Below are positions 10,128 to 46,896 of a stretch of 64,000 nucleotides of DNA, piece by piece. The position numbers and the translations under genes are program-made. The stretch's first letter is position 1. The number at the start of each line of letters is the position of its first letter. The notes under the pieces were generated by a model. The model saw only the letters and a list, made by a program, of their open reading frames with translations. It had not been told where the DNA came from and did not search any database. The stretch is from contig NZ_BLPG01000001.1 in NCBI RefSeq assembly GCF_011764445.1, positions 8,795,316 to 8,859,315 of the forward strand, given 5' to 3'. Source of the stretch: Phytohabitans rumicis (GTDB lineage Bacteria > Actinomycetota > Actinomycetes > Mycobacteriales > Micromonosporaceae).

Positions 10128-10131
10128 CCCT

Positions 10132-10297
10132 GGGGCCTGTATCAAAGTGGGGGCCGGAGCGAGGCGAGGCCCAGGCGGCGATCCGGCAAGGCGGGCGGAA
10201 GGTCGCATACCGGTGTTGTATGCGGCCTTTCGACCGGCGCCGCCGGTCGTCGTCTGGGTCCGCCGCAGCCCGGTCATCCACGTTGATACAGGCCCCA
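10132..10297. repeat. Palindromic element family A, copy 1 (166 bp)
   Basis: The ends are 19-bp inverted repeats, GGGGCCTGTATCAAAGTGG at 10132-10150 and its near-complement at 10279-10297 (one mismatch). Inside is the smaller hairpin GCATAC-CGGTGTT-GTATGC. A second copy at 23433-23595 is the same element in the opposite orientation and is very similar over its whole length. Both copies begin 0-4 bases after a TAG stop codon, in the same orientation relative to that gene. The end repeats differ between copies but stay complementary within each copy. Confidence 0.92.
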
Positions 10298-12560: not shown

Positions 12561-12649
12561 AGCACCGGGCAGCTCGGCGGGGCCGGTCGCTTGCCGGCAG
12601 TGGACTTGGTGGGGCAGGGCGGGATCTTGCGCCCGGTTATGTCCCCACC

Positions 12650-12749
12650 GATCAAGGAGAACCCCGTCGATCAAGGGCAAACGGTCGTGGATTGGAGATC
12701 AAAGCACGACCATATGCCCTTGATCGACGCGTAAGCCCTTGATCGACGC
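12650..12749. repeat. Family C nested palindrome, copy 1
   Basis: Four GATCAAGG half-sites are arranged as two inverted pairs around a core: GTCGATCAAGGGC before, GCCCTTGATCGAC after, and CGGTCGTG/CACGACC pairing inside. It lies downstream of the siderophore-binding-protein stop at 12793. Between them are three units of a 12-bp GGGGCGCGGGGA-like repeat (about 12756-12792). Confidence 0.9.
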
Positions 12750-12792
12750 GCGAGAGGGGCGCGGGGAGGGGCGCGGGGAGGGGCGCGCGGGG

Positions 12793-17408: not shown

Positions 17409-18182
17409 ATGGACGCCACGACCTGGGGACTTCTGACCGCCACGTTCGCCGCCTCGTTCGTCGAGTTCGTCGAGGCGCTGACCATCGTGCTGGCCATGGG
17501 CTTCACCCGCGGCTGGCGTTCGGCCCTGGCCGGCACCGCCGCCGCGCTGGTCGCGCTGGTCGTCTTCACCGCCGCCGTCGGCTACGCGCTGTCCAGTTGG
17601 CTGCCCGAGGCGGCACTCCAACTGGTGGTCGGCACGCTGCTGCTGATCTTCGGGCTGCAGTGGCTGCGCAAGGCCACGCTGCGCTCCAGCGGGCTCAAGG
17701 CGCTGCACGACGAGACCAAGGAGTACGCGTCGCAGACCGCGGCGGCCCGCGAGGCGGGGGAGAAGCGCCGGTACGGGATCGACACCTTCGGCTTCGTCGT
17801 CTCCTTCAAGGGCGTCTTCCTGGAGGGCGTCGAGGTGGTCTTCGTCGTCATCACGTTCGGCCTGAACGCCGGCAACATGGGCGGCGCGATCGCCGGCGCG
17901 GCCGCGGCGGGCGTCATCGTGCTCGGGCTCGGCGCGGCGCTGCACCGCCCCCTCGCGGCGATCCCGGAGAACCTGCTCAAGTACGGGGTCGGCGTGCTGC
18001 TGGCCGCGTTCGGCAGCTACTGGATGTTCGAGGGCATCGGGTTCTTCCGGGACGGCCGGGAAAGCCTGCACTGGCCCGGCGGTGACTGGGCGATCCTCGT
18101 CCTGCTCGCCGGCTGGCTGGCCCTGTCCCGCCTGCTGGTCGCCGGCCTGCCCCGGCTCAAGTCCACTGTGGAGGTACCGTGA
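17409..18182 (+). CDS. Multi-pass membrane protein, COG4280-like
   Basis: This 257-residue protein has about seven hydrophobic segments in two related halves. Each half has a conserved acidic motif in a helix: FVEFVEALTIVLAMGF near the start, and SFKGVFLEGVEVVFVVITFG in the middle. Glu-rich paired repeats resemble cation/H+ exchangers of the GDT1/TMEM165 kind, and I place it with the uncharacterised COG4280 membrane proteins with moderate confidence. It begins the operon that leads to the VIT1-type transporter, so a metal-transport role is an inference from context. Its TGA stop is the first three bases of a family B element. Confidence 0.72.
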   Translation: MDATTWGLLTATFAASFVEFVEALTIVLAMGFTRGWRSALAGTAAALVALVVFTAAVGYALSSWLPEAALQLVVGTLLLIFGLQWLRKATLRSSGLKALHDETKEYASQTAAAREAGEKRRYGIDTFGFVVSFKGVFLEGVEVVFVVITFGLNAGNMGGAIAGAAAAGVIVLGLGAALHRPLAAIPENLLKYGVGVLLAAFGSYWMFEGIGFFRDGRESLHWPGGDWAILVLLAGWLALSRLLVAGLPRLKSTVEVP

Positions 18183-18294
18183 GTTCGCGCAGCGGCGCGG
18201 CGTCGTTTTCCCGGCGGCGTCGCGCACCTAAACCGCCCTCGTACACCGCCGCCGGCGGGAAGGCGTCGCCTTCCGGCGCCGCTGCGCGAACTCA
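18180..18294 (+). repeat. Family B intra-operon palindrome, copy 1 (115 bp)
   Basis: The element starts with the TGA stop of the preceding gene. The first 19 bases (TGAGTTCGCGCAGCGGCGC) pair perfectly with the last 19. It ends two bases before the Shine-Dalgarno AGGAGG (18297-18302) of the next gene. A homologous element of exactly the same length, 34704-34818, sits in the same position between two other genes. Confidence 0.92.
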
Positions 18295-18309
18295 CCAGGA
18301 GGTCTCGTC

Positions 18310-18528
18310 ATGAACGCGCTGCGGGCGTTCGGCCGCTTCTGGTACGACTTCATCGTCGGCGACGACTGGAAGATCGCGGTCGCCGTGGTCACCGCGCTGG
18401 CCCTCACCGGTGCGCTGTGGGCGGCCGGCCTGCTCAGCGTCTCCGCCGTCCCGGTGGCCGGAGCGGTTCTGCTGTTCGCCCTGTTCGCGCTGAGCATGGT
18501 CGTCGACGTACGCCGGAGCACGCGATGA
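18310..18528 (+). CDS. Small two-helix membrane protein
   Basis: This 72-residue protein has an amphipathic N-terminus (MNALRAFGRFWYDFIVGDDW) and two hydrophobic helices, ending in VVDVRRSTR. I do not recognise a named family. It is preceded by a strong AGGAGG placed directly after the family B palindrome, and its stop overlaps the ATG of the VIT1-type gene (ATGA). It is probably an accessory of the neighbouring transporters. Confidence 0.8.
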   Translation: MNALRAFGRFWYDFIVGDDWKIAVAVVTALALTGALWAAGLLSVSAVPVAGAVLLFALFALSMVVDVRRSTR

Positions 18529-19226
18529 CCTCTTCGGCGTACCCGATGGAGCTGCACCGGCACCACCGCGACGTGACCGGCGGATGGCTGCGCCCGGCGG
18601 TGTTCGGGGTGATGGACGGCCTGGTGTCGAACGCGGCGCTGATCGCCGGCGTTGTCGGCGGCGGCGGGCGCGGCAGCGTGGTCGTGCTCGCCGGGCTGTC
18701 CGGCCTGGCCGCCGGTGCCTGCTCGATGGCGGTCGGCGAGTACACGTCGGTGGCCTCGCAGTCCGACCTGGTCCGCGCCGAGCTGGACATCGAACGCCGC
18801 GAGCTGGCCCGGGACCCGGACGCCGAGCAGGAGGAGCTGACGCTGCTCTACCAGGCCCGCGGGCTGGACCGTGACCTGGCCGAGCTGGTGGCCCAGCAGC
18901 TGCACCGCGACCCGGAGACGGCCTGGCGGGTGCACGCCCGCGAGGAGCTCGGCGTCGACCCTGACGACCTGCCCTCGCCGTGGCTTGCGGCCGTATCGTC
19001 GTTCACCGCGTTCGCCCTCGGTGCGCTGGTGCCGCTGCTGCCGTTCCTGCTCGGGCTGGACTCGGTCGGCGGCGCGGTCGCGCTGACGCTGCTGGCGCTC
19101 TTCGCGACCGGCGCGGCCGTGGCCCGGCTGACCGGGCGCGCGCTCTGGCGCGGCGGTGGCCGGCAGCTCCTATTGGGCGTGTTGGCGGCGGCCGTGACGT
19201 TCACGATCGGCAGTCTCGCCGGCTAG
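18525..19226 (+). CDS. VIT1/CCC1-family Fe2+/Mn2+ transporter
   Basis: This 233-residue membrane protein has the family hallmarks: FGVMDGLVSNAALIAGVVGG in the first helix, GLAAGACSMAVGEYTSVASQSD, a cytoplasmic acidic helical insert (about residues 85-150), then SSFTAFALGALVPLLPFLL. Family members move Fe2+ or Mn2+ out of the cytoplasm, usually by proton exchange, to limit metal toxicity. It shares an ATGA overlap with the small protein before it. It is close to the siderophore importer operon, which suggests a local iron-handling cluster. Confidence 0.92.
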   Translation: MTSSAYPMELHRHHRDVTGGWLRPAVFGVMDGLVSNAALIAGVVGGGGRGSVVVLAGLSGLAAGACSMAVGEYTSVASQSDLVRAELDIERRELARDPDAEQEELTLLYQARGLDRDLAELVAQQLHRDPETAWRVHAREELGVDPDDLPSPWLAAVSSFTAFALGALVPLLPFLLGLDSVGGAVALTLLALFATGAAVARLTGRALWRGGGRQLLLGVLAAAVTFTIGSLAG

Positions 19227-19236
19227 GGTGTGACTG

Positions 19237-20682
19237 GTGGATCTTGTAGTGGTGGGCGCCCGGGTCGTCGATCCCGCTTCGGGCCTGGACGCCGTCCGCG
19301 CGGTCGGCATGCGCGGCGGCGCCATCGTCAGCGTGAGCGAGACGCCGCCGCCGGCCGCGACGGTGCTGGACGCGACCGGGCTGGTCCTGGCGCCCGGCTT
19401 CATCGACCTGCACAGCCACGCGCAGGACCGGGTCGGCATGCGGTTGCAGGCCCTCGACGGGGTGACGACCGCGCTGGAGCTGGAGGCCGGCGGGCTGCCG
19501 GTAGCCGCGCGGTACCGCCAGGCGGCGGACGAGGGCCGGCCGATCAACTTCGGCTACTCGGCGGGCTGGGAGGTCGGCCGGATGCACCTGTTCGACGGGG
19601 TGCCGCTGGACGGCGACGCGCTGGACGTCGGCCTGGCCAACGTGCACCTGCCCAACTGGAGCCGCCCCTGCTCGCCCGGTGACCTGGCACGCCTGCTCGA
19701 CCTGCTGTCCCAGGAGGTCGCGGACGGAGCGCTCGGGTTCGGCGTCCTGCTCGGGTACGCGCCGGACACCGACCGGTCGGAGTACCTGGCGCTCGCCGCC
19801 CGCGCCGCGTCGCTCGGGGTGCCGTGCTGGACGCACATGCGGTACGCCGGGATGGCCGGCGTCGCCGAGGTGCTCGCCGCCGCCGAGCAGACCGGCGCGC
19901 AGCTGCACATCTGCCACCTGAACAGCTCTTCCGAGAACGACGTGGAGGAGATCTGCGCGGCCATCACCGGCGCGCGCTCCCGCGGCGTGCGGGTCACCAC
20001 CGAGGCGTACCCGTACGGCGCGGCGTCGACGAACATCGGCGCGCCGTTCCTGTCGCCCGAGGCGCTGGCTTCGCAGGGCCGGCCGACGACCGTGCTGACG
20101 TACCTGGCGACGGGGGAGCGGGTCGCCGACGAGGCGCGGCTGCGCCAGTTGCGCGCCGACGACCCGGGCGGCCTGGTCATCATCGACTTCCGCGACGAGG
20201 CCGACCCGGTCGAGCGCGACCTGCTGCTGCGCACGCTGTTGCTGACCGACACCGTCGTCGCCACCGACACGATGCCCATTGTGGACGGTGGGCGGCGGCT
20301 GCCGGGCGACACGTGGCCGGTGCCGCCCACCGCCCGCGTGCACCCGCGCAGCGTCGGCGGGTACGCCCGCACGTTCCGCTGGCTGGTGCGCGAGCTGGGC
20401 GTACTGTCCATGATGGAGGCCGTACGGCGGTGCTCGCTGCTGCCGGCGCAGCTGCTGGAGGGCGTCGCCCCGGCCATGCGCAACAAGGGCCGCATCCAAC
20501 CTGGCGCGGACGCCGACCTGGTGCTCTTCGACCCGTCCACGATCGCGGACCGGGCCACCTACACGGCGATCCGGCCGTCCGCCGGGATCGCGCACGTCCT
20601 CGTGAACGGCGAATTCGTGGTTCGGGACCACGAGCTCGTGCTCGACGCCATGCCCGGCCGGCCGGTCCGCGGCTCATCCTGA
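19237..20682 (+). CDS. N-acyl-D-amino-acid deacylase-like amidohydrolase
   Basis: This 481-residue metal-dependent hydrolase of the M38/D-aminoacylase type has the metal motif GFIDLHSHAQD, His in WTHMRYAG and ICHLNSSS, late Asp in VATDTMPIV, and the C-terminal beta-domain (NKGRIQPGADADLVLFDP). It would remove an acyl or carbamoyl group from an amino-acid-like substrate; the precise substrate is unknown. The GTG start at 19237 lies 10 bp after the transporter stop. It is followed 9 bp later by the aminotransferase, so deacylation then transamination is a plausible sequence. Confidence 0.88.
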   Translation: MDLVVVGARVVDPASGLDAVRAVGMRGGAIVSVSETPPPAATVLDATGLVLAPGFIDLHSHAQDRVGMRLQALDGVTTALELEAGGLPVAARYRQAADEGRPINFGYSAGWEVGRMHLFDGVPLDGDALDVGLANVHLPNWSRPCSPGDLARLLDLLSQEVADGALGFGVLLGYAPDTDRSEYLALAARAASLGVPCWTHMRYAGMAGVAEVLAAAEQTGAQLHICHLNSSSENDVEEICAAITGARSRGVRVTTEAYPYGAASTNIGAPFLSPEALASQGRPTTVLTYLATGERVADEARLRQLRADDPGGLVIIDFRDEADPVERDLLLRTLLLTDTVVATDTMPIVDGGRRLPGDTWPVPPTARVHPRSVGGYARTFRWLVRELGVLSMMEAVRRCSLLPAQLLEGVAPAMRNKGRIQPGADADLVLFDPSTIADRATYTAIRPSAGIAHVLVNGEFVVRDHELVLDAMPGRPVRGSS

Positions 20683-20691
20683 AGGGGTTCG

Positions 20692-21999
20692 TTGCCCGCG
20701 CTGTACGAACGCGACCTCGCCGCCGTGGCGAGCGTGCTGCACCTGCGCTTCTACCCGCTCGCCACGACGAGCGGGTCCGGCCCGTGGCTGGTGGAGGAGG
20801 GCGGCCGGCGGCTGCTGGACCTCACGGCCGCGTTCGGCGCCGCCGGCCTCGGGTACGCCCACCCGGCCGTCGCCGCCGCCGTGACGAAGGCGGCCGGCGA
20901 GATGGCCGGCGTGTCCGCGCTCATGGGAGCCACGCCCGAGACGGTCGGGTTCGCCGAGGAGCTGCTCGCCCTGCTGCCCGGCGGCACCGACCGCCGCGTC
21001 TACATCGGACACGCCGGCACCGACGCCAACACCGCTGCCATCCGGGCCGCCCGGGCGGCGACCGGCCGGTCCCGGGTGCTCACGTTTGGCGGCTCGTACC
21101 ACGGCGGGCTGGGGGAGTCGCAAGGCGTCTCCGGCGTGTACGTCTCCGGCGGCCTGCGCCCCGAACCCGGCCTCGCGCAGGTGCCGTACCCGTACCCGTA
21201 CCGGCCGCACGCTTTTGTTGATTCGCTCCTGGCCGACGTGCTGGGCCGGGTCGACGCGGAACTGTCCACTGGGGACGTCGCCATGGTGATGGTCGAGCCG
21301 GTCACCAACGACGGCGGCGTGATCGTGCCGCCCGACGGGTTCCTGGCCGGCCTGCGCGAGCGGTGCGACCGGCACGGCACGCTGCTGTGCGCCGACGAGG
21401 TCAAGGTCGGGCTCGGGCGCACCGGCACGCTGCACGCGTTCGAGGCCGACGGTGTCGTCCCCGACGTACTGACGCTGGGCAAGACGCTCGGTGGCGGCCT
21501 GCCGCTGTCCGCAGCCGTGCTACCCGCCGAGGTCGACGCGGCCGCCGAGGGCCAGATCCTGCTGACCACCATCGGCAACGCGGTCTGCACCGCCGCCGGG
21601 CGCGCGGTGCTGAGCACCATCGTGACCGAGCAGCTGTGGACCCGGGCCGCCGTCCTCGGCGAGCGGTTCCTGGCCGGCCTGCGCGCGGTGGCCGAACGGC
21701 ACCCACTCGTCGGCGACGTACGCGGCCGCGGCCTGACCATCGGCGTCGAGCTGGTCACCGACCGCGCCACGAAGGCGCCGGCGACGTTGGAGACGGCGCT
21801 GACCGTGTTCCGCGCGTTCGAGCTGGGCGTGCTGGTCGACTACGTCGGGCCGGACAGCAACGTCATCGAGCTGACCCCGCCGCTGGTGCTGACCGAGGAG
21901 GAGGTCGACCTGGCGGTCCAGGTCCTGGACGCCGCCCTCGGCGACGTCGAGTCCGGCCAGGTCCCCGAGGACGCGATCGCCCGCTACCGCGGCTGGTGA
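20692..21999 (+). CDS. Class III pyridoxal-phosphate aminotransferase
   Basis: This 435-residue protein has the fold-type I class III motifs: SGSGPWLVEEGGRRLLDLTAAFG, HAGTDANTAAIRAARAATG, GSYHG, the cofactor Asp in LLCADEVKVGLGRTG and the Schiff-base Lys in TLGKTLGGGLP. It probably transfers the amino group of a terminal-amino or D-amino substrate to a keto acid. The start is TTG at 20692, the only start in phase soon after the amidohydrolase. Its 3' end is followed by a family C repeat block. Confidence 0.9.
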   Translation: MPALYERDLAAVASVLHLRFYPLATTSGSGPWLVEEGGRRLLDLTAAFGAAGLGYAHPAVAAAVTKAAGEMAGVSALMGATPETVGFAEELLALLPGGTDRRVYIGHAGTDANTAAIRAARAATGRSRVLTFGGSYHGGLGESQGVSGVYVSGGLRPEPGLAQVPYPYPYRPHAFVDSLLADVLGRVDAELSTGDVAMVMVEPVTNDGGVIVPPDGFLAGLRERCDRHGTLLCADEVKVGLGRTGTLHAFEADGVVPDVLTLGKTLGGGLPLSAAVLPAEVDAAAEGQILLTTIGNAVCTAAGRAVLSTIVTEQLWTRAAVLGERFLAGLRAVAERHPLVGDVRGRGLTIGVELVTDRATKAPATLETALTVFRAFELGVLVDYVGPDSNVIELTPPLVLTEEEVDLAVQVLDAALGDVESGQVPEDAIARYRGW

Positions 22000-22019
22000 G
22001 GCGCCCCCTTCTTGCCCTC

Positions 22020-22185
22020 TCCCCTCGTCGATCAGGGGCCTCCGCGTCGATCAGGGCCTCCGCGTAGATCAAGGGTTTCCGCGTCGATCAGGTTTTTCCG
22101 CGTCGATCAAGGGCATATGGTCGTGCTTTGATCTCCAATCCACGACCATTCGCCCTTGATCGACGCGGAATTCCTTGATCGACGA
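22020..22185. repeat. Family C palindrome copy 2, preceded by a half-site tandem array
   Basis: About five units of a 19-20 bp repeat containing CGTCGATCAGGG or CGTCGATCAAGG run from about 22026 to 22110. The last unit starts a nested palindrome with the core CGTGCTTTGATCTCCAATC, which is the inverse orientation of copy 1's core. It lies just after the aminotransferase stop at 21999. Confidence 0.9.
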
Positions 22186-22227
22186 ACGCGGGGGTGGGGT
22201 GGGCGGCCTGCGCGGGGCGGGGCTCGC

Positions 22228-22580
22228 CCACAGTAGGGGTCCCCTGTGGGGAGTTCGCGCGTTAGTGGGGCGCCCCAAGGCCGGGTAGTTAGGGGAACCC
22301 GGTGCGGGTCTTGACGACTGTGGCGAGTAGTTGCCGTCCACGGGGCAACTACTCGCCACGGTCGTGGATGGCCTGGGGTCTCGCGGTCGGGTATGCCGGA
22401 TACGTCCGAGCGGCCGGCCCGATCGCCCCGGCCACGTCGAACAGCGCCGACACCGCTTGACAAGGGCCCACTTTCCTTAACTACCCGGCCTTGGGGCGCC
22501 CCTGTACCCGCGCAGAGCTGTACAGGGGCGCCCCGCTCACGGCCGGTCGCCCAAGAGGGGACCCCTACTGGCGGGTCACC
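22228..22580. repeat. Repeat islet with nested inverted repeats, includes perfect hairpin 22315-22364
   Basis: The 22000-22802 gap has no credible gene. Outer arms GGGGCGCCCCAAGGCCGGG (22267 onward) and their complement near 22483-22505 enclose a hairpin with 21-bp arms at 22315-22335 and 22344-22364 (one G-T pair). GGGGTCCCC-type palindromes flank both sides. The same outer arm sequences recur around 47.0-47.4 kb with different hairpins between them. Confidence 0.8.
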
Positions 22581-22643
22581 CCCGACCCGGACGGCGTGCC
22601 GCTCGTGGTTGGGCTGGGAGCGGCCCGTCCCGCCGTCAACGCT

Positions 22644-22727
22644 CGTCGATCAAGGACTTAAGCGCCGATCAAGGGCAAACGGTCGTAGAAAAGAGATCCA
22701 ATCACGACCATATGTCCTTGATCGACG
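22644..22727. repeat. Family C nested palindrome, copy 3
   Basis: It has the same GTCGATCAAGG pairs and CGGTCGT/ACGACC core as the other copies. It lies downstream of the small kinase gene, whose stop is at 22803. Between them are four units of a 20-bp repeat (CGACGAGGAAGGCCCACGGG type) at 22724-22802. Confidence 0.9.
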
Positions 22728-22802
22728 AGGAAGGCCCACGGGCGACGAGGAAGGCCCACGGGCGACGAGGAAGGCCCAACGGCGACGAGGAAAGCGCAAG
22801 GG

Positions 22803-23402
22803 TTAGGTGGTGCGGCTGGGGCCGCCGGAGCCGAGGCCGCGTAGGGCGTTGTCGACGCGGTCGAGCAGGTCGGTCCAGGGCCGGGCGGGCACCACGGCGA
22901 TCCCGCATCGCACGGCGCGTCCGGCCAACTGGGCGCCGATCATGGCGCTCACCCGGGCACGGTTGCGCTGCTCGCCGTAGCCCGGTTCGCGGGCGCGGTA
23001 GTTGGCGACGATCTGGTCCTCGTCGGGCTCGTCGATGACGACGGCGCGCACGGCACCGCCCGCGTACCCGGTGGCGAGCTCGGGCAGCAGGTAGTCGCCT
23101 TCGAGGACGACCCGCGCCCCGGCCGAGACGTGGTCGGCGATCACCGCCGACAGGCCGGGCTCCACGGCGTCGGCGACCGACAGGTGCAGCTCGGCGACCT
23201 TCTCCGGCGGCCACGCCTTGACCTGGGGGTGGGTGTCCCAGTAGTGCAGCAGCGGCTGCTGCTCGGCGGTGGTCATGGCCCGCAGCGCGGTGACGACGTC
23301 GTCCACCTCACCCAGGGGCGTGCCGTACCGGCGGGCCAGCGCGGCGGCGACGCTCGACTTTCCCACTCCGGCCGCGCCGCAGATGAGGGTGACTGTCCAC
23401 AC
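22803..23402 (-). CDS. P-loop small-molecule kinase-like protein
   Basis: The 199-residue protein starts with a P-loop (CGAAGVGKSS) and has the layout of a nucleoside or shikimate kinase-like NTPase: GEVDDVVTALRAM, VVLEGDYLLPEL and YRAREPGYGEQRNR. The substrate is unknown. The open frame extends to an ATG at 23438, but that codon lies inside the end of a family A repeat, so I prefer the GTG at 23402. No Shine-Dalgarno is seen before either, so the message may be leaderless. Confidence 0.78.
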   Translation of the reverse strand: MWTVTLICGAAGVGKSSVAAALARRYGTPLGEVDDVVTALRAMTTAEQQPLLHYWDTHPQVKAWPPEKVAELHLSVADAVEPGLSAVIADHVSAGARVVLEGDYLLPELATGYAGGAVRAVVIDEPDEDQIVANYRAREPGYGEQRNRARVSAMIGAQLAGRAVRCGIAVVPARPWTDLLDRVDNALRGLGSGGPSRTT

Positions 23403-23432
23403 GCGCGCGAGCTTAGCGGGTACCGTCCTATA

Positions 23433-23595
23433 GGGCATTTACCAAAGTGGATGACCGGGCTGCGGCGGGCCCAGACGACGACCGGCGGCGCCGGGCGGAA
23501 GGCCGCATACAACACCGGTATGCGACCTTCCGCCCGCCTTGCCGGATCGCCGCCTGGGCCTCGCCTCGCTCCGGCCCCCACGTTGGTAAAGGCCC
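23433..23595. repeat. Palindromic element family A, copy 2 (163 bp)
   Basis: This is the inverted-orientation partner of 10132-10297. The ends are GGGCATTTACCAAAGTGG (23433-23450) and its near-complement at 23578-23595. The stop codon TAG of the minus-strand gene beginning at 24227 shares its last base with the element, so the element begins at that stop exactly as copy 1 follows its gene. Confidence 0.92.
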
Positions 23596-24227
23596 TACAG
23601 CTTGCGTCCCTCGTGGGCGGCCCGCGCGCGTTGATCTTCGCCGATGTCCCCGCCGAACGGGGAAAGGCCGGGCAGCCCGTCGATGCTGTGCTCGTTGTTG
23701 ACGTCGCAGTAGTCGCGGATCGCGCTGGGCCCGCGCTGCTCCAGCCACGCCTCGGCGGTGCGGTAGAGCTGCCGGCGCTCCTCCTGGTACGCCATCACCG
23801 GCACGACGAACCCGCACGAGTCGGATATCCGGGCGGCGTCGATCCGGACGATCCCGCGCACCGAGCTGCGCGCCTCCTCGGCCAGGTCGAAGCGGGCCAG
23901 CAGGTCGGGAAAGCGCGGGTCGGCCATCTCCACCGGCTCGCCCCGGCCGTGCACCCGGATGATCATCGGTGGGCCCTCGAAGGAGCAGAACATCATCGTG
24001 ATCCGCCCGTTCTGCTTCAGGTGGGCGACCGTCTCGATGCCGCTGCCGAAGAGGTCGACGTAGGCCAACTCCTGCTGGCCGAGCACGGCCAGCGTGCCCT
24101 TGCCGCCCTTGGGCGAGAGGTTGACGTGGCCGCCGTCGCCGCTCGGCGCGGTCGCCACGAAGAACATGGGCTGGCGCAGCAGCCACCCACGCAGCCGGTC
24201 GTCGATCTCGGGGAGGACGGAGCCCAT
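23595..24227 (-). CDS. Pyridoxamine 5'-phosphate oxidase-family flavin protein
   Basis: This 210-residue protein has the split-barrel FMN/F420-binding fold: MFFVATAPSGDGGHVNLSPKGG, LKQNGRITMMFCSFEG and MIIRVHGRGEPVE. The C-terminal region with DSCGFVVPVMAYQEERRQL matches a branch of general oxidoreductases of unknown substrate. It is 3 bp downstream of the PaiB-like gene and forms a flavin-protein pair with it. A family A element begins at its stop codon. Confidence 0.88.
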   Translation of the reverse strand: MGSVLPEIDDRLRGWLLRQPMFFVATAPSGDGGHVNLSPKGGKGTLAVLGQQELAYVDLFGSGIETVAHLKQNGRITMMFCSFEGPPMIIRVHGRGEPVEMADPRFPDLLARFDLAEEARSSVRGIVRIDAARISDSCGFVVPVMAYQEERRQLYRTAEAWLEQRGPSAIRDYCDVNNEHSIDGLPGLSPFGGDIGEDQRARAAHEGRKL

Positions 24228-24230
24228 CAG

Positions 24231-24857
24231 CTATCCCTTCAAGCTAGCCAGGCGCTGGCGCATGGCCTGCGCCAGGGCGGGGTTGGCGTGGGTGGGGTCG
24301 CGGTCCAGGGCCGCCATGACGCTGTCCACGTCGGCGGCGGGCTTGTCCTGGCTGAGCTTCGCCTTGCCCACGATCCGGTCGGGGCGGAGCCGGAACGCGG
24401 TGGTGCCGCCGGAAATCCGGTGGGCGTACTCGGCGACGCTGGCCAGCCGCCACGGCACCGGCCGGTCGCGCTCGAAGTGGTCGACGGTTCGTTCGAGCAC
24501 CTCGTAGGTGTCGGCGGGGCCGAGCACGTCCGGCCGCCCGTGCAGGTGGGCGACCACGAAGTTCCAGGTGGGCACGTACGGGCCGGACACGTAGAAGCTG
24601 GGCGAGACGTACCCGTGCGGGCCCTGCACCACCAGCGCCACCTCGTGCTGGCCGAGTCCGTGCAGTTCGGCGTCGGCACGGGCCAAGTGTCCCAGCACCG
24701 CCAGGTCATCGCCGCCGTCCGGGTCGAGCAGGACCGGCAGGTGGGACACGACGGGGCCGGCCGCCGTGCCGGTGACCAGCGTGGCCCAGCCGTGGTCGCG
24801 CACGAGCGCGCGCACCTCGGCGACGTCCGTCATCGCGTACCCGCGCTGCTCCAGCAT
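24231..24857 (-). CDS. PaiB-family FMN-binding protein
   Basis: This 208-residue protein matches the PaiB family (FMN-binding split barrel): HLPVLLDPDGGDDLAVLGHLARA, YVSPSFYVSGPYVPTWNFV and the C-terminal IVGKAKLSQDKP, which is highly characteristic. In Bacillus PaiB is called a negative regulator of sporulation and protease genes, but a flavin-dependent function is more likely than DNA binding. It lies between the serine hydrolase (3 bp upstream) and the flavin protein, all in one leftward run. Confidence 0.92.
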   Translation of the reverse strand: MLEQRGYAMTDVAEVRALVRDHGWATLVTGTAAGPVVSHLPVLLDPDGGDDLAVLGHLARADAELHGLGQHEVALVVQGPHGYVSPSFYVSGPYVPTWNFVVAHLHGRPDVLGPADTYEVLERTVDHFERDRPVPWRLASVAEYAHRISGGTTAFRLRPDRIVGKAKLSQDKPAADVDSVMAALDRDPTHANPALAQAMRQRLASLKG

Positions 24858-24860
24858 CGC

Positions 24861-27703: not shown

Positions 27704-27732
27704 GGGAAGAACTATACGTTACAGAATCAGCG

Positions 27733-27761
27733 TTGACACCATGATCTGTATGTGACATTAC
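27733..27761 (+). promoter_or_regulatory. Candidate promoter of the dipeptide importer operon
   Basis: TTGACA at 27733-27738 is followed after 17 bases by CATTAC, a poor -10. The sequence TTGACAC reappears at 28688 before the binding-protein gene. The 65-bp region is shared with the divergent amidohydrolase gene. Only the -35-like box is convincing. Confidence 0.35.
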
Positions 27762-27768
27762 TTGGGAA

Positions 27769-28680
27769 GTGACGGCATCCCCCTCCTGGCGGCGCCTGCG
27801 CCGCGACCGGACCGCGCTGGCGAGCGCCATCGTCCTCGCCGTCGTCACGCTGCTCTCGATCGGGGCGCCGGCGGTCTGCGGGCTGCTCGGCATCGACACC
27901 GAACGCCACATCGAGCTGCTCAGCATCGACAACGTCGGGTTCCCGGAGGGCGCCTTCGGCGGCATCAGCGCCGACCATCCGCTCGGCGTCGAGCCCAAGA
28001 CCGGCCGGGACGTGCTCGCCCTGCTGCTGTACGGCTCGCGCACCTCGCTGCTCATCGCGCTGGGTGCGACCGCGCTGTCGATGCTGCTCGGCGTCGGGTT
28101 CGGGCTGGTCGCCGGCTACTTCCCCGGCGCGGTCGACAGCCTGCTCTCGCGCATCATGGACGTGCTGCTCGCGTTCCCGGTCCTGCTCTTCTCGATCGCT
28201 CTGCTGGTCGTGCTCGGCGGCGTCGACAGCCTGTTCTTCCTGTCCGGCAACGGCCTGCGCGTCGCGGTGCTGATCCTGGTCATCGGGTTCTTCGGATTCC
28301 CGTACGTGGGCCGGCTGATCCGCGGGCAGGTCATCTCGCTGCGGCAGCGCGAGTTCGTCGAGGCGGCCCGCGCGCTGGGCGCCTCCAACCGGCGCATCCT
28401 GTTCGCCGAGATCCTGCCGAACCTGCTCTCGCCGATCCTGGTGGTGTCCGCGCTGACCATCCCGACGCGCATCCTCGCCGAGGCGGCGCTCTCGTTCCTC
28501 GGCGTCGGTGTCCAGCCGCCGGAGACCTCGTGGGGCCAACTGCTCGGCTCGGCCTCGCACGTGTTCACGGTCGACCCGGCCTACATGCTCTTTCCCGGCC
28601 TCGTCGTGGTCCTCACGGTGCTGGCGTTCAACCTGCTCGGCGACGGGCTTCGCGACGCGTTCGACCCGCGGTCACATTAA
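27769..28680 (+). CDS. Dipeptide/oligopeptide ABC transporter permease (DppC type)
   Basis: This 303-residue permease has an N-terminal helix, then a binding-protein-dependent transport domain with the cytoplasmic EAA loop (FVEAARALGASNRRILFAEILPN). HPLGVEPKTGRDVLALLLYG is typical of DppC/OppC. It is unusual in being first: most operons put the binding protein first. The GTG start at 27769 has no obvious Shine-Dalgarno. Genes 27769-33.5 kb form one operon encoding two permeases, two ATPases and a binding protein. Confidence 0.93.
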   Translation: MTASPSWRRLRRDRTALASAIVLAVVTLLSIGAPAVCGLLGIDTERHIELLSIDNVGFPEGAFGGISADHPLGVEPKTGRDVLALLLYGSRTSLLIALGATALSMLLGVGFGLVAGYFPGAVDSLLSRIMDVLLAFPVLLFSIALLVVLGGVDSLFFLSGNGLRVAVLILVIGFFGFPYVGRLIRGQVISLRQREFVEAARALGASNRRILFAEILPNLLSPILVVSALTIPTRILAEAALSFLGVGVQPPETSWGQLLGSASHVFTVDPAYMLFPGLVVVLTVLAFNLLGDGLRDAFDPRSH

Positions 28681-28714
28681 CCCTAATTTGACACTGATTC
28701 TGATTGAGGCGCAG

Positions 28715-30478
28715 ATGAGACGTTCGATATCGGCCGGCGTGCTGGCCACCGTCATGCTGGCCGGCTGTTCCGGAACCGCGGAGAAGAAGGAGGGCGGCGA
28801 CGGCTCGGGCGGCTTCGACGCGGCCCGTACCGGCGTGGTCAACGCCTCCGACAAGACCGGCGGCACGCTGCGGCTCGGCGGCACGGCGGACTGCGACTCC
28901 TGGGATCCGGCCGCCACCTACAACGGGTACTGCTGGAACCTGCAGCGGCTGATGACCCGCACGCTGGTCGCCTCGCCCGGGTACGGCGACCAGGCCCGCA
29001 CCATGAAATCCGGCGAGCTGGTGCCCGACCTGGCCACCGCGCTGGGCCAGTCGAACGCCGACAAGACCGTGTGGACGTACAAGCTGCGCTCGGGGCTGAA
29101 GTTCTCCACCGGGGCGGCGATCACCAGCGCCGACATCAAGTACGGCTTCGAGCGGATGTGGGCCACCGACGTCATCTCCGGCGGGCCGGCCGGCTACTTC
29201 CTGTGCCTGCTGGACACCTGCGACGACGAGGGGACGCCGGAGTACGAGGGGCCGTACAAGGACAAGAAGGGTGGGCTGGAGCGGATCGAGACGCCGGACG
29301 CGCAGACGATCGTGTTCCGCCTGACCGGTTCGTTCGCGGACTTCGACTACCTGATGGCGCTCCCGGCGACCGCCCCGGTGCCGCGCGCGCAGGACAAGGG
29401 CGCGTCGTACACGAAATCGGTGGTCGCCTCCGGGCCGTTCGTCTTCGAGTCGTACACGCCGGGGCAGAGCGTGGCCTGGAAACGCAATCCACATTGGAGC
29501 CAGGACACCGACGAGGTGCGCCACCCCAAGGTGGACAAGGTCACCCTGACCCTGCTCAGCAACCCCGACGACCTGGACGCCCGGCTGAAGAACGGCTCGC
29601 TGGACCTGGCCGCCGGGGGTGGCGTGCAGCCGACGTTCCAGTCCGAGATCCTGGGCAGCCCGGCGCTGAAGGCCAACGCCGACAACCCGGTCAGCGGCTT
29701 CGTCGGGCTCTTCGCGATCTTCCCGACGGCGCCGTCGCTGGACAACGTGCACTGCCGGCGGGCCATCGCGTACGCCCTGGACAAGCGCGACCTGCTCGTG
29801 CAGTCGGGCGGGACGTACGGCGGCAGCTACGCGGCGACGCTGCTGCCGCCCGCGGTGCCGGGGCACGACGCGAACGCCAACGCGTACCCGTCGGGCGCGG
29901 ACTGGACCGGTGACGTGGACAAGGCCAAGCAGGAGCTGGCCGAGTGCGGCAAGCCGGACGGGTTCAGCACGGTCATGGCGTACACCAACTCGGGCCAGGA
30001 CCCGCAGATCTTCGCCAGCGTCCAGGCGGCGCTCAAGCGGGTCGGCATCACGGTGACCGGCAAGCAGCAGGACGAGAGCGTGTACTACGGCAACTACATC
30101 GGCGCGCCCGCCACCGTCAAGGAGCAGCAGCTCGGCATCGCGTCGATCGGTTGGGCGCCGGACTACCCCAGCGGCAACGGCTTCCTGAGCCTGCTGGTCG
30201 ACGGGGCCCGGATCCAGGCGGAGGGCACCACCAACTACGTCAGCGTCAACGACGAGGTCCTCAATGGACTCATCAAGCGCTCGGCCACCGCACCGCTGGC
30301 CGAGCAGGCGCAGATCTTCAAGGAGCTGGACAAGCAGACCATGGAGCGCGCGCTCTACCTGCCGTACTTCTACCAGAAGGCCCTGCTCTACCGGAACCCG
30401 CGGGTGACCAATGTGGACCTACGCGCCGACGCCGGCGGGTACGACCTGGTCAACCTCGGGGTCAGCGACGGAAAGTGA
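28715..30478 (+). CDS. Extracellular solute-binding lipoprotein, family 5 (peptide type)
   Basis: This 587-residue protein has a lipobox (LAGC, Cys18) and the family-5 motifs: GGTLRLGGTADCDSWDP, LVPDLATAL, WTYKLRSGLKFSTGAAITSADIKYGFERM, VASGPFVFESY and the C-terminal ALYLPYFYQKALLYRNPRVTNV. It binds peptides or similar compounds outside the cell for the importer. Three extra Cys (CLLDTC, CWN) suggest disulfides. The start follows TGAGG at a good distance and lies 34 bp after the preceding permease. Confidence 0.93.
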   Translation: MRRSISAGVLATVMLAGCSGTAEKKEGGDGSGGFDAARTGVVNASDKTGGTLRLGGTADCDSWDPAATYNGYCWNLQRLMTRTLVASPGYGDQARTMKSGELVPDLATALGQSNADKTVWTYKLRSGLKFSTGAAITSADIKYGFERMWATDVISGGPAGYFLCLLDTCDDEGTPEYEGPYKDKKGGLERIETPDAQTIVFRLTGSFADFDYLMALPATAPVPRAQDKGASYTKSVVASGPFVFESYTPGQSVAWKRNPHWSQDTDEVRHPKVDKVTLTLLSNPDDLDARLKNGSLDLAAGGGVQPTFQSEILGSPALKANADNPVSGFVGLFAIFPTAPSLDNVHCRRAIAYALDKRDLLVQSGGTYGGSYAATLLPPAVPGHDANANAYPSGADWTGDVDKAKQELAECGKPDGFSTVMAYTNSGQDPQIFASVQAALKRVGITVTGKQQDESVYYGNYIGAPATVKEQQLGIASIGWAPDYPSGNGFLSLLVDGARIQAEGTTNYVSVNDEVLNGLIKRSATAPLAEQAQIFKELDKQTMERALYLPYFYQKALLYRNPRVTNVDLRADAGGYDLVNLGVSDGK

Positions 30479-30480
30479 CG

Positions 30481-31496
30481 ATGGTCCGGTACTTGCTCGG
30501 GCGGCTTGCCGGCGCGCTGATGGTGGTGTTCGTGATCAGCGTGGTCACGTTCGCCATCTTCCAGCTCGCGCCCCGGCTCACGGGGGCCAACCTCGCGTTC
30601 TTCTACACCGGTAAGAACACCAGCGAGGCGCAGGCGGCGGCGGTCGCGCAGAAGTTCGGCTTCGACCGCCCGCTGCCCGAGCAGTACTGGACGTTCATGT
30701 CCGGCATCGTCGCCGGGCGCGACCTCAGCGACGGCGCCACCGAGGTGCACTGCGCCGCGCCCTGCCTCGGCTACTCCTTCCGGCAGAACCGGCCGGTGCT
30801 GGAGATGATTGGCGAGGCGTTCCCGGTGACGCTGGGGCTCACCGTCGGCGCGGCCGTGCTGTGGCTGCTGTTCGGCGTCGCATCCGGCGTGCTGTCGGCC
30901 GTACGCCGCGGCTCGGTCTTCGACCGGCTCGCCACCACGGTCGCGCTCGTCGGCGTCTCGGTGCCGGAGTTCTTCACCGGCATGCTGCTGATCTACCTGC
31001 TCACCTCGGGGCCGGCCTGGCTGCGGTGGTACCCGGACGGGATCAACTACGTCGCGTTCACCGACGACCCGGTGGGCTGGTTCGTCAACATGATCCCTCC
31101 GTGGATCTGCCTGGCACTGCTCTTCGCCGCCCTGTACGCCCGGCTGACCCGCGCCACCATGCTGGAGACCATGGGCGAGGACTACGTGCGGACCGCCTGG
31201 GCCAAGGGCCTGGCCCCGCGCGTGGTGATCGGCCGGCACGGGCTGCGCGCCGCCCTGCCCCGCTGGTCACCCTCGTGGGGCTGGACATCGGCGCGCTGCT
31301 CGGCGGCGCGGTGCTCATCGAGACGCTGTTCAGCTTCCCCGGCATGGGCCGGCTGGCCTACGCCGCCATCACCAAACAGGACCTACCGGTGATCATGGGG
31401 GTCACGATCGTGTCCGCGTTGTTGATCGTGCTCGCCAACGTCATCGTGGATCTGCTGTACGGGATCCTGGATCCACGGGTGCGCCATGCCCGATGA
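30481..31496 (+). CDS. Dipeptide/oligopeptide ABC transporter permease (DppB type), one-base frameshift
   Basis: The product is about 338 residues when repaired. The N-terminal MVRYLLGRLAGALMVVFVIS and the extended extracytoplasmic loop with GATEVHCAAPCLGYS are typical of the actinobacterial DppB family. The frame breaks at the CCCC run at 31258-31261, inside the transport domain: GRHGLRAAL continues as PLVTLVGLDIGALLGGAV in another frame. One more C restores it to the stop at 31496. It starts two bases after the binding-protein stop and overlaps the next ATPase ATG by 11 bp. I treat it as functional with a likely sequence error. Confidence 0.87.
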
Positions 31497-32565
31497 GCCG
31501 CTGCTGCGCGTACGCGACCTGCGCGTGCACTTCCCGACCGACGACGGCCTGGTCCGCGCCGTCGACGGGCTGTCCTTCGACGTCGCGCCCGGCGAGATCG
31601 TCGGCATCGTCGGCGAGTCCGGCTCCGGCAAGTCGGTGACCAGCCAGGCGATCCTCGGGCTGGTCCGCACCGGTCCGGCCCGCGGCCGGCTGCGTCCGTT
31701 TCGAGGAGCGCAGCGACGAGGACGGACGCAGCCGGCCGTCGGGGCCGAAGCGAGCCAGCCAGCAGGGCCGAGGGTCTCCGGCGAGATCTGGTACGGCGGC
31801 CGGGACCTGGTCGCCGCGCCCGAGCCGCAGCTGCGCCGGCTGCGCGGTGCCGAGCTGGCGATGGTCTTCCAGGACCCGCTCTCCGCGCTGCACCCGTACT
31901 ACACGGTCGGACGGCAGATCAGCGAGGCGTACCGGGCGCACAACCGGGTCGGCCGCCGGGCCGCGCGGGCGCGCGCCGTGGAACTGCTCGACCGGGTCGG
32001 CATCCCGGAGCCCGACCGCCGCTACGACGCGTTCCCGCACCAGTTCTCCGGCGGGATGCGGCAGCGCGTGATGATCGCGATGGCGCTGGTGAACACGCCG
32101 AAGCTGCTCATCGCCGACGAGCCGACCACCGCCCTCGACGTCACCGTGCAGGCGCAGATCCTCGAACTGGTCAAGGACCTGCGCCGGGATTTCGGATCCA
32201 CGATCCTGCTGGTCACCCATGACCTGGGCGTGGTCGCCGAAACCTGCGACTCGGTGGTCGTCATGTACGCCGGCCAGTGCGTCGAACAAGGGTCGGTGAC
32301 GGACGTGTTCAGCCGGCCGCGGGCGCCGTACACGTGGGGGTTGTTGGAGTCCATGCCACGCATCGACCGGGACCGGCGGGAGCGGCTGGTGCCCATCGGC
32401 GGCCAGCCGCCCTCGCTGCTCGCGCTGCCGGACGGCTGCGCCTTCGCGCCCCGCTGCACGCACCGTGGCGAGGTCCCCGACGGCCGCTGCGACACCGAGC
32501 GGCCGGAACTGGTGCCGGTCGGGGACGGGCACACGGCGCGCTGCCACCTGGCGGTGACCTCATGA
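31486..32565 (+). CDS. Peptide ABC transporter ATP-binding protein (DppD type) with inserted palindrome
   Basis: This 359-residue ATPase has Walker A GESGSGKS, signature [16 protein letters not shown], Walker [13 protein letters not shown] and the C-terminal Cys-rich FeS-type region [18 protein letters not shown]. About 30 extra residues (about 66-95, very Arg/Gln/Pro rich, [14 protein letters not shown]) interrupt the region between [10 protein letters not shown] and VSGEIWYGG. The DNA there is a palindromic element (31684-31737 plus a tail), in frame. Homologues go straight from the helix to the SGEI strand. The insert lies on a surface loop before the second beta strand, so the enzyme may still work. 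Confidence 0.9.
31684..31770 (+). repeat. Palindromic element inside the DppD-type ATPase gene
   Basis: GGCCGGCTGCGTCCGT (31684-31699) pairs with 31722-31737 as a perfect 16-bp stem. The loop carries GAGCGCAGCGACGAGG. The trailing GGGGCCGAAGCGAGCCAGCC (31741-31760) resembles the tail of the element at 44181-44280. It adds about 30 in-frame codons to the host gene. Confidence 0.82.
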
Positions 32566-33731
32566 CCGACCTGCTCACGGTCACCGACGTGCGCAAGCAC
32601 TTCGGCCCCGTACGCGCCGTCGACGGCGTCTCCTTCTCCGTCCGCGCCGGCGAGACGCTCGGACTGGTCGGCGAGTCGGGGTGCGGCAAGTCCACCACCG
32701 CGCGACTCGTCACCCGGCTCATGGATCCAACATCCGGGAGCGTTCATTTCGACGGCCACGAGATCGGCCGATGGCCGGAGCGCAAGCTGCGGCCGCTGCG
32801 CCGCGACCTACAGATGATCTTCCAGGACCCGTACGCCTCGCTGAACCCGCGGCACACCGCCGGCGCCATCCTCGCGGCACCGTTCCGCATCCAGAAAGTA
32901 CGCCCGGCGCACGGCGTCCGGGCCGAGGTGCGCGACCTGATGGCGCGGGTCGGCCTGAACCCCGAGCACGAGAACCGCTACCCGCACGAGTTCTCCGGCG
33001 GCCAGCGGCAGCGCCTCGGGATCGCCCGCGCGATCGCGTTACGCCCGAAGCTGGTCGTGTGCGACGAGCCGGTGTCCGCATTGGACGCCTCGGTCCAGGC
33101 GCAGGTCGTCAACCTCCTCGACGACCTGCAGGACGAGTACGGCCTGGCCTACGTCTTCGTGGCCCACGACATGGCGGTGGTGCGGCACATCTGCGACCGG
33201 GTCGCGGTGATGTACCTGGGCCGGATCGTCGAGGTCGCCGACTGCGACACCCTGTACGCCTCGCCGCAGCACCCGTACACGCAGGCCCTGCTGTCCGCCG
33301 TACCGGTGCCGGACCCCACCCGGCGCGACCGCCCCGACCGCATCCTGCTGCGCGGCGACCCGCCGAAGGCCGGCGAGGCGGCGGTGGGCTGCTCCTTCCG
33401 CGGCCGCTGCCCCCGCTACCGGGACGCGCTGGACGACACCCAACGCGCCCGCTGCGCCACCGACACCCCGCACCTGACCGACGGCGTAGCCTGCCACTTC
33501 CCAACCCCCACCCCCACCCCGATCCCACCCCCGCCTAACCCCTCGCCCCCGCCCCCGCCCGCCCCCGGCCCCCCGCGCCCCGCCCGCGCGTCGCCCGCGC
33601 CCGCCTGCCCCGCGCGTCGCCCGCCGCTGGGCCGCGTCGATCAAGGACTTCCCCGTCGATCAAGGGCAAACGGTCGTGCTTCGATCTCAGATCCACGACC
33701 ATATGCCCTTGATCGACGCGCAAGTCCTTGA
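32562..33731 (+). CDS. Peptide ABC transporter ATP-binding protein (DppF type), runs on into repeat DNA
   Basis: The ATPase domain is complete: [49 protein letters not shown], and the C-terminal oligopeptide-binding Cys region [15 protein letters not shown] normal protein would end near TDGVACHFP (about 33498). Here the frame continues through a Pro-rich tail ([20 protein letters not shown]) and a family C repeat to 33731. If one base is missing in the C runs at 33500-33535, the frame ends at a TAA at 33536-33538 instead. The start overlaps the stop of the preceding gene (ATGA). I trust the domain up to about 33500. Confidence 0.83.
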
Positions 33732-33746
33732 TCGACGCGGCCCAGT
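33627..33746. repeat. Family C nested palindrome, copy 4
   Basis: This copy has the longest arms: 24 bases from 33627 (starting CTGGGCCGCGTCGATCAAGG) pair perfectly with 33723-33746. It sits between the convergent importer operon and the hydrolase at 33813, at the 3' end of both. Confidence 0.92.
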
Positions 33747-33812
33747 GGCCCGGCTCACGCGGCCAAGCGCGGTGGGCGGCGTAGGTCGTGCGGCCGAGGT
33801 CAGGCGTGGTGG

Positions 33813-34688
33813 TCAGGCGTCGTGGGCGCGGAGGAAGGCGCCTACCACCGCCAGGAACGCGTCCGGCTCCTCAAGATGCGGCAGGTGGCTGGAGTTCGGG
33901 AAGACGTGCGAGCGTACGTCCGGGATGCGTTCGACGAACGGGGCCCATACCTCCGGCGCCGCCTCGTCGTACGCGCCGGCCACCACCAGTGTCGGTGCCG
34001 TGATGCCGGGCAGCCGGTCCACGATCGTCCAGTCGCGGAACGTGCCGGTGGCGGAGAACTCGTGCGGGCCGTTCGTGGTGTGGTAGACGGTCGGGTCGGC
34101 GGCCATCTGGGCGTACGTCGCCGCGAGCGGAGCCGGCATGGGATCGAGCCGGCACACGTGGCGCTGCTCGTAGACGCGCACCGCGGCCTGGTATTCCTCG
34201 GCGTCGAGGGTGCCGGCGGCCTCGTGGCGCTCCAGCGCGGAGAGCACGTCGGGAGGGAGGGCGGCGCGCAGCCGGTGGGCGGCCGCGCGCCACAGCTCGT
34301 TGGCGGCGGGACTGTCGCAGATGGACACCGACAGCAGGCCGTCCGGGTGCGCCAGCGCGTACTCCGCGGCGAGCATCCCGCCCCACGACTGGCCGAGCAG
34401 GTGGAAGCGGTCCGCGATGCCGAGCGTACGCACCAGGTTGGCGAGTTCCTCGACCCACAGCTCGACGGTCCAGAAGCCGGGGTCGGCGTCCGGCAGGTGG
34501 GTGCTGTTGCCGCAGCCGAGCTGGTCGTAGAGCACGACCGCGCGGCCGTCGCCGGCGAGTGCGCCCATCGGTACGCAGTAGTCGTGGCCGGCGCCCGGCC
34601 CGCCGTGCAGGATGACGACGGGCGCCCGTGGGCCGTCCCCGATGACCCGGTACCAGGTCTCGTGGCCCCGATAGGCGACGGTGGTCAT
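33813..34688 (-). CDS. Proline iminopeptidase-like alpha/beta hydrolase (S33)
   Basis: This 291-residue hydrolase has HGGPGAGHDYC at the oxyanion hole, nucleophile elbow GQSWGG (Ser101) and a late Asp and His (GAYDEAAPE and SSHLPHLEEP). HGGPG plus GQSWGG marks the proline iminopeptidase/tricorn-interacting-factor branch, which removes N-terminal residues from peptides. It is the last gene of the seven-gene leftward operon. AAGGAGG (34695-34701) precedes its start and directly follows the family B element. Confidence 0.9.
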   Translation of the reverse strand: MTTVAYRGHETWYRVIGDGPRAPVVILHGGPGAGHDYCVPMGALAGDGRAVVLYDQLGCGNSTHLPDADPGFWTVELWVEELANLVRTLGIADRFHLLGQSWGGMLAAEYALAHPDGLLSVSICDSPAANELWRAAAHRLRAALPPDVLSALERHEAAGTLDAEEYQAAVRVYEQRHVCRLDPMPAPLAATYAQMAADPTVYHTTNGPHEFSATGTFRDWTIVDRLPGITAPTLVVAGAYDEAAPEVWAPFVERIPDVRSHVFPNSSHLPHLEEPDAFLAVVGAFLRAHDA

Positions 34689-34703
34689 GCTCTGCCTCCT
34701 TGG

Positions 34704-34818
34704 TGAGCTCGCCCGGCGGCGCCCGAAGGCGATGACTTACCAGCGGCGACGAGGTCCGGGGGTGGCGCGGGTCCGTGACGCCGCCGGTAAGACATCGCCG
34801 CGCCGCCGGGCGAGCTCA
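34704..34818 (-). repeat. Family B intra-operon palindrome, copy 2 (115 bp)
   Basis: Read on the minus strand it starts with the TGA stop of the aminopeptidase gene. The first 19 bases (TGAGCTCGCCCGGCGGCGC) pair perfectly with the last 19. It ends two bases before the AAGGAGG of the next gene. It is homologous to 18180-18294, including GGCGGCGTC in the middle, and has exactly the same length. Three pairs of the outer stem differ and all are compensated. Confidence 0.93.
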
Positions 34819-46707: not shown

Positions 46708-46866
46708 CCCCGCGGCCTCCTCTCCCCGCGGCCTCCTCTCCCCGCGGCCTCCTCTCCCCGCGGCCTCCTCTCCCCGCGCGCGCCGCTCCCCGCGCGCGCC
46801 GCTCCCCGCGCGCGCCGCTCCCCGCGCCGCTCCCTCCCCGCGCCGCTCCCTCCTCGTGCCGGCCTC
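46708..46866. repeat. 16-bp GC tandem repeat array
   Basis: About nine to ten head-to-tail units of 16 bases follow the permease stop. The units drift: first CCCCGCGGCCTCCTCT (4-5 units), then CCCCGCGCGCGCCGCT (3), then CCCCGCGCCGCTCCCT (2). The array leads into a family C palindrome. The whole 46700-47631 interval has no credible gene. Confidence 0.85.
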
Positions 46867-46896
46867 CTGGTGCCGCTCTCGCCGTGCCGGCCTCCC

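Follow-up and report, generated by a model that had tools for sequence, protein, structure and literature searches.

A stretch of 64,000 nt from the 10.7-Mb genome of Phytohabitans rumicis (hereafter, the window) contains two copies of a palindromic element lying between operon genes, copy 1 downstream of a transporter gene on the plus strand and copy 2 downstream of a pepN-like gene on the minus strand (Table 1). The two copies are homologous and can be aligned from end to end, each between a stop codon and a Shine-Dalgarno (SD) sequence, as a preliminary description of this DNA had proposed, and they were recovered independently by BLAST with copy 1 and by a repeat scan that pairs them as inverted sequences of 119 nt with 76% complementarity. 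The outer arms, previously given as 19 bp, are 20 bp long and perfectly complementary in both copies, and the three pairs that differ between the copies are all compensated. Folding energies are −84.2 and −98.4 kcal/mol (z = −6.49 and −8.75), with 0 of 200 shuffles folding as well. The edges first assigned, which enclosed 115 bp, had to be moved: the boundary rule derived from element-free orthologous sites gives units of 131 bp that start with the G of the left GTGA and end directly before the downstream ATGA, so that the SD belongs to the element. AGGAGG had been placed two bases beyond the end of the palindrome, which holds for copy 1 but not for copy 2, where the distance is three bases. 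Both the stop codon and the SD, originally taken as the landmarks between which the element sits, are supplied by the element itself, and what had been read as an untranslated gap is in both copies a maintained open reading frame (ORF) of 44 codons that overlaps each neighbouring gene by 4 nt (a −4 overlap). Neither of the two ORFs has a Pfam match.

The covariance-model search envisaged in the preliminary description recovered the family in the P. rumicis genome (G000) and in five other genomes of the genus (G001-G005; individual loci are labelled L###). The first model (R1), built from 17 BLAST-found copies aligned with MAFFT, was searched in 61 genomes, and matched all six genomes of the genus and, weakly, 3 of the 55 others. 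In G000, at least 26 strong copies were found, each scoring at least 75.9 bits; the R1 matches below this set came either from the reverse strand of these palindromes, as echoes, or from a sister type of shorter length. With a second model (R2), matches listed at E up to 0.001 numbered at least 36, 30, 32, 34, 14 and 19 in G000 to G005, respectively; all copy numbers from model searches are lower bounds. Among the weak R1 matches outside the genus, L067 is a genuine relative, L066 has the core combined with other ends, and L068, located inside a long ORF, was taken as a chance match. A Streptomyces match (L091) lacks the body of the element and was rejected. Tandem arrays of the element occur, and we counted one site per array, which gave 129 sites from the six genomes, 122 of them with a recognisable DTGA (GTGA, ATGA or TTGA) at the left end. 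Excluded from the counts were L074 (G001, at a contig end), G001:C235, R2 matches beyond those listed and the additional units of each tandem array; L079 and L208 denote one and the same locus.

Comparison with orthologous operons that lack the element identifies the insertion point. We queried the six genomes with the joined flanks of 19 sites and judged empty orthologues from the alignments, without scoring as empty those that carry an element or another insertion (L120, L289-L296, L299). Thirteen of the 19 sites, including copy 2 of the window, had at least one empty orthologue, 42 in total; none of the orthologues examined for L031, L047, L048, L049, L064 and L081 was judged empty. DTGA is located exactly at the junction in 41 of the 42. 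At ten sites, judged by eye with part of the frames checked, this DTGA comprises the upstream stop and the next start in a 4-nt overlap; at L083 and L061, it serves solely as a start codon and follows a TAGGGT or TAGGCT hexamer at a distance of a few bases, and at L040, it is a stop only. The target gene at L083, read from its sequence, is presumably acpS. The counterpart of copy 2 in G001 reads ...CCGATGACG... at the junction. For copy 1, the flank search found no orthologue in the six genomes; 12 homologues of its downstream gene were found in other genera, and at least 4 of the 8 inspected start with GTGA or ATGA. The right DTGA keeps the first letter of the target in several copies, and the left one is mostly GTGA; because copies with a right ATGA carry a left GTGA (L031, L033, L036), the left GTGA comes with the element, and a target-site duplication of GTGA was rejected. 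No extended motif around the empty sites was apparent by eye. A crude gene call on both strands of the window yielded 7 DTGA overlaps vs. 154 intergenic DTGA sites, and less diverged copies in G002-G005 touch a gene start or stop at 62 of 71 sites. Among the 37 sites classified (see below) as ‘downstream only’ or ‘neither’, 6 have a TANNNT hexamer located 3-10 nt ahead of the left GTG, compared to 1 of the 49 full-chain sites; together with what the empty orthologues show at L083 and L061, this suggests that leaderless starts are targeted as well. The targets are mostly stop/start overlaps and sometimes, judging from sequence, probable leaderless starts. Separately, short units without the long palindrome are located at L120 (G002) and L299 (G000), where G005 (L065) and G001 (L061), respectively, hold full elements, so that either one start codon received insertions in two or more species or the unit became shorter.

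The element opens with GTGA, which restores the upstream stop and provides the GTG start of the small ORF, and its usual length of 3n+2 results in closure of this ORF on the DTGA of the target, forming a chain of −4 overlaps; many copies have an SD-like sequence at the right end. We classified the gene junctions with a rule based on GC content by codon position, independent of annotation, which miscalls the clear cases L033 and L064 as ‘no upstream gene’. Of the 129 sites, 49 show upstream gene, ORF and downstream gene in a −4/−4 chain (some via more than one unit), 12 an upstream junction with a downstream fusion, 18 an upstream junction only, 23 a downstream junction only, 6 a fusion only, and 14 neither, the remaining 7 having no left DTGA; the upstream gene ends exactly in the element at 79 sites, and 21 have no recognised gene junction. 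Coding on the same strand was found on both flanks at 91 of the 129 sites. When the coding frames of the flanks were scored without use of the element ORF, the left TGA was in frame with the upstream coding frame at 86 of the 103 scorable sites, and the ORF stood at −4 to the downstream coding frame at 66 of 101 and was fused to it in frame at 20. A lack of preference for gaps between stop codons and ribosome-binding sites, which the preliminary description had named as a refuting outcome, is not what this tally and the frame scoring show.

The first ORF most often has 42 codons (41 of 104 sites), followed by 44 codons (8) and 35 and 39 codons (5 each), and the length variants mostly keep the phase. 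Among indel-free copies of the G000 type, 0 of 13 have an in-frame stop compared to 3.9 expected when each copy's own substitutions are placed at random on the consensus (22 of 2000 simulations were as low); among those of the G002-G005 type, 1 of 49 has one compared to 9.7 expected (0 of 2000 simulations). The ratio of nonsynonymous to synonymous changes (pN/pS) is 0.92-0.97 in the ORF frame and 0.59-1.05 in the shifted frames, so that the ORF frame is not distinct as conserved. A function of the peptide was rejected given the ratio near 1 and the lack of a Pfam match for either window ORF; these sequence comparisons indicate that the reading frame matters and the peptide does not. At L037, L046, L051 and L063, the ORF is fused in frame to the downstream protein, giving N-terminal extensions of approximately 40 residues; by reading, we take the fused proteins at L037 and L051 to be response-regulator-like and murC-like, respectively.

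The second outcome that had been named in advance, a stem without covariation, is likewise not what the alignments show. In the structure-free MAFFT alignment of the 17 BLAST-found copies, 94% of the cells are paired and 21 of 40 pairs are doubly changed; 0 of 500 shuffles reach the observed pairing score and all slides score far lower. Kinship alone can beat such shuffles without any structure, but the slides share that relatedness. G-U pairs outnumber A-C mismatches 59:6 and 191:9 in two alignments fitted to the models (A4 and A5, respectively), and 37:9 in A5 after removal of the three columns richest in G-U, an excess that suggests pairing of the sense strand. Three species share one filled site (L077 in G004, L135 in G003, L149 in G002), where a compensated C/G swap in the inner stem and G-U pairs were seen by eye. 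The GTG of the element was paired with probability of at least 0.99 in 7 of 7 G000 copies folded alone, and the SD, outside the stem, ranged from accessible to paired in these copies.

Taken together, these observations make it likely that the sequences form a mobile, translated palindrome family that inserts immediately 5' of a DTGA start and hands ribosomes on to it. Insertion, position, open frame, phase and pairing are shown directly in the sequence comparisons; the term ‘mobile’ rests on presence and absence among orthologues because no transposase or autonomous copy was found in the six genomes, which is itself a point against this reading. Other observations weigh in the same direction. 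One of the 42 empty orthologues, at L111, has the junction GTAATG; 7 of the 129 sites have no left-end DTGA and 14 fit no gene junction by the classifier; and the ORF is neither at −4 nor fused at 15 of the 101 scorable sites. The stop-codon test omits copies with indels (11 of 24 for the G000 type and 18 of 67 for the G002-G005 type), some of which have lost the frame. At L072, which is filled and has empty orthologues, the frame meets a TAG four codons ahead of the junction stop; phase is kept neither at L260 (25 nt by our count) nor in the short unit at L299, which has an early TGA. Several G000 copies have no good SD (for example, L034, L043 and L051). The G-U excess, derived from model-fitted alignments, is compatible with pairing of the same strand in either RNA or single-stranded DNA. 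Finally, hairpin-free versions of 29 nt (L261, L264, L088) occupy the same kind of site, so that the palindrome is not essential for residence there.

The typical element would act as a self-contained relay cassette: its GTGA renews the stop of the gene before it and also contributes a start codon, followed by an open frame, most often of 35-44 codons, that spans the long palindrome, often ends in an SD-like sequence and closes on the target DTGA. Initiation that used to take place at the target codon, whether coupled or leaderless, would shift to the GTG of the element; the translating ribosome would unfold the hairpin and then, by −4 coupling and helped by the SD of the element, re-initiate at the original start, and the same logic would apply to leaderless targets. 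In the absence of translation, the base of the hairpin would hide the GTG, and the SD outside the stem may allow independent initiation downstream. Such a relay would make insertion cost little expression, hence its tolerance. The original proposal of a structured element with covariation, inserted between genes that are translated, is supported, whereas the notion that it separates their expression by processing, attenuation or stabilisation is not supported; effects on processing or stability are possible.

The palindrome could be kept only as a signal for mobility, such as a single-stranded DNA hairpin recognised by an enzyme, with the open frame merely filtering the insertions that survive. 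We consider this possible, if rather unlikely. The elements are palindromic, repeated and arranged in tandem arrays, sister types with a common core occur in 6 of 300 genomes of the family, and G-T pairs are tolerated in DNA, too. However, Y1 (REP-associated) transposases, and with them RAYT as a mobiliser, are absent from all six genus genomes, compared to 5 of 14 control genomes that were positive; in the end-motif lists, read by eye, paired ends are at most ~200 bp apart and no pair brackets a longer, autonomous copy; and orthologous copies keep their pairing in place, though gene conversion might contribute. Translation or mRNA could also guide insertion beyond selective filtering, with functional start codons, coupled or leaderless, being recognised as targets via, for example, an RNA intermediate or single strands exposed by ribosomes. 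The scarcity of DTGA overlaps relative to intergenic DTGA sites in the window, set against the 79 of 129 sites at which the upstream gene ends in the element, would fit this reading, which we regard as unlikely.

That the element is an untranslated structured RNA in intercistronic gaps (an attenuator, an RNase III site or a stabilising hairpin) would fit the very stable, covarying sense-strand hairpin in operons between stop codon and SD, but appears improbable given the stop-free frame of indel-free copies, the −4 phase across many length variants and the hairpin-free copies at comparable sites. In copy 1, the palindrome is followed by CAGGAGG rather than a T-run, so that an intrinsic terminator was rejected for this GC hairpin, and the lone terminator-like site in a scan of copy 1 is weak and lies inside the left arm. 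Rfam gave no match in the window at the gathering score and, with relaxed thresholds at five loci, only two sub-threshold mir-H3 matches elsewhere in L136. Equally doubtful is a promoter island, with separate transcription of the downstream gene starting in the repeat, as reported for the mycobacterial interspersed repetitive units (MIRUs) that lie between senX3 and regX3: promoter activity of this MIRU-bearing region is described in one study (PMC4213456), but no sigma-70-like site was found in window positions 17900-18700 around copy 1, in a scan that covers actinobacterial promoters poorly. Templated repair from arm to arm of an inverted repeat, in place of selection, would explain near-perfect palindromes with many pair types, but would hardly yield the strong G-U over A-C asymmetry, given that such repair is strand-symmetric, and is very unlikely.

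The relay reading places the elements close to MIRUs, which were reportedly described by Supply et al. in 1997. In excerpts of a 2025 review, MIRUs appear as mobile repeats that insert at start codons, with an internal ORF coupled at −4 to the gene (PMC12548453), and tandem MIRU units of 77 and 53 bp are mentioned in part of another source (PMC4213456). The Phytohabitans elements share insertion at start codons or DTGA overlaps and the −4 spacing, and the 77- and 53-bp units are both 3n+2, like most elements here. Thus, the elements appear to be built like MIRUs, the closest kind as far as these partial descriptions go, a comparison of descriptions and not of sequences. In contrast to MIRUs, they reside in another host family than Mycobacterium, and the long palindrome, the in-frame fusions and the hairpin-free forms are features shown for the Phytohabitans elements. 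The present analysis contributes the covariation of the palindrome, the carried SD, the probable leaderless targets, a protected frame that encodes a neutral peptide, and a comparison of empty sites in another family.

Rickettsia palindromic elements (RPE), located inside ORFs with a conserved encoded peptide according to an extract of PMC10969869, are likewise palindromic, translated in frame and mobile-looking. The G000 sister type that lies inside genes, in frame at L225 and L214, resembles them, whereas the junction type differs in being located at start/stop codons and in its unconserved peptide. The enterobacterial repeat RU-1 is also called ERIC. RU-1, RU-2 and RU-3 are intergenic repeats of 103-168 bp that resemble miniature inverted-repeat transposable elements and can carry ORFs, according to an abstract (PMC2759123) in which neither start/stop-overlap targeting nor a 3n+2 rule is mentioned. 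REP and BIME sequences are also short palindromic repeats, with REPs described in part of PMC3733652 as 20-40 bp long, tagged by GTAG/CGTC and mobilised by RAYT transposases, unlike the elements of these six genomes, where no Y1 transposase was found. In the literature covered, in which subscription journals are thinly represented, we found no recognisable description of the Phytohabitans family.

Table 1. Features of the two element copies, their neighbouring genes and a further repeat family in the window
Feature	Coordinates	Strand	Basis or remark
Upstream gene of copy 1, OFeT_1 / GDT1-like transporter	17409-18182	+	
TGA stop of the OFeT_1 / GDT1-like gene	18180..18182	+	Supplied by the element's GTGA
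Element copy 1, 131 bp (3n+2)	18179..18309	+	Directly 5' of target ATGA at 18310; empty-site boundary rule from other copies
Copy 1 small ORF, 44 codons	18179..18313	+	GTG start in GTGA, TGA stop in ATGA
Copy 1 outer stem, left arm	18179..18198	+	
Copy 1 outer stem, right arm	18276..18295	+	
SD AGGAGG carried by copy 1	18297..18302	+	
Downstream gene of copy 1, 72 aa	18310..18528	+	No Pfam match
VIT1-family gene	18525-19226	+	Joined to the 72-aa gene by a further −4 overlap
Element copy 2, 131 bp (3n+2)	34689..34819	-	Orthologous junction in G001 element-free, with ATGA
Copy 2 small ORF, 44 codons	34685..34819	-	GTGA to ATGA
TGA stop of upstream peptidase M1 (pepN-like) gene	34816..34818	-	Supplied by the element
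Copy 2 outer stem, left arm	34800..34819	-	
Copy 2 outer stem, right arm	34703..34722	-	
SD AGGAGG carried by copy 2	34695..34700	-	
Downstream gene of copy 2, alpha/beta hydrolase	33813..34688	-	ATG start at 34688
Repeat copies with CGTCGATCAAGG motifs	12649-12778, 22085-22214, 22647-22776, 33638-33767, 46881-47010, 47499-47628		Different family from the palindrome element

The core motif of the shorter sister type, found in the six of 300 genomes mentioned above, is distributed over 4 of the 44 genera of the family. In G029, from another genus, six of nine matches were read by eye; all begin with ATGAGCGCG or GTGAGCGCG, one locus begins right after TAG, and the ORFs end in ATGA, GTGA or TAGTG in 4 of 6 and run on in frame in 2 of 6, indicating, at the level of sequence, a similar element design. 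G071 and G014 have other outer ends. The related core with other outer arms was also observed at L233, L240 and L223 in G071, with the units at L233 and L240 beginning at the TGA in the context CTGAGGGAGCGAGCG. Sister palindromes also lie inside coding genes, with the core SGLRSEATRED in one frame, at L225, L214, L220, L234 and L241 (G000), L226 (G001) and L217 (G083); those at L225, L214 (with a weak upstream score) and L217 are in frame with both flanks, and the others are out of frame or unclear. By reading, the host gene of L225 presumably encodes a nonribosomal peptide synthetase condensation domain. L255, L256 and L257 (G005) represent a longer type that begins GTGAGCGAGCGAACCA...CACAGCG and has only the first part of the family ends in common. 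The window contains other repeats as well: a family with CGTCGATCAAGG motifs and inverted halves, in six copies of ~130 nt that are 65-80% identical to the first (Table 1); a 170-nt inverted repeat pair, 92% complementary and 13 kb apart (10126-10295 and 23433-23602); and short tandem arrays at 22723-22802 and 46747-46866, with a 20-nt unit (CGACGAGGAAGGCCCACGGG) and a GC-rich 12/16-nt unit.

With these elements, a second host family among the actinobacteria offers a case of mobile repeats exploiting stop/start overlaps, and the anatomy is explicit: the element brings along a stop codon, a start codon, an SD and an open frame whose length is 3n+2. Annotation of such an element as an untranslated spacer would miss it. 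The finding raises the question of what moves the element, and turns the survival of small repeats inside operons into a testable model, that of natural translational relays; it may also reveal a route to N-terminal extensions of proteins, given that 18 of the 129 sites read as fusions.

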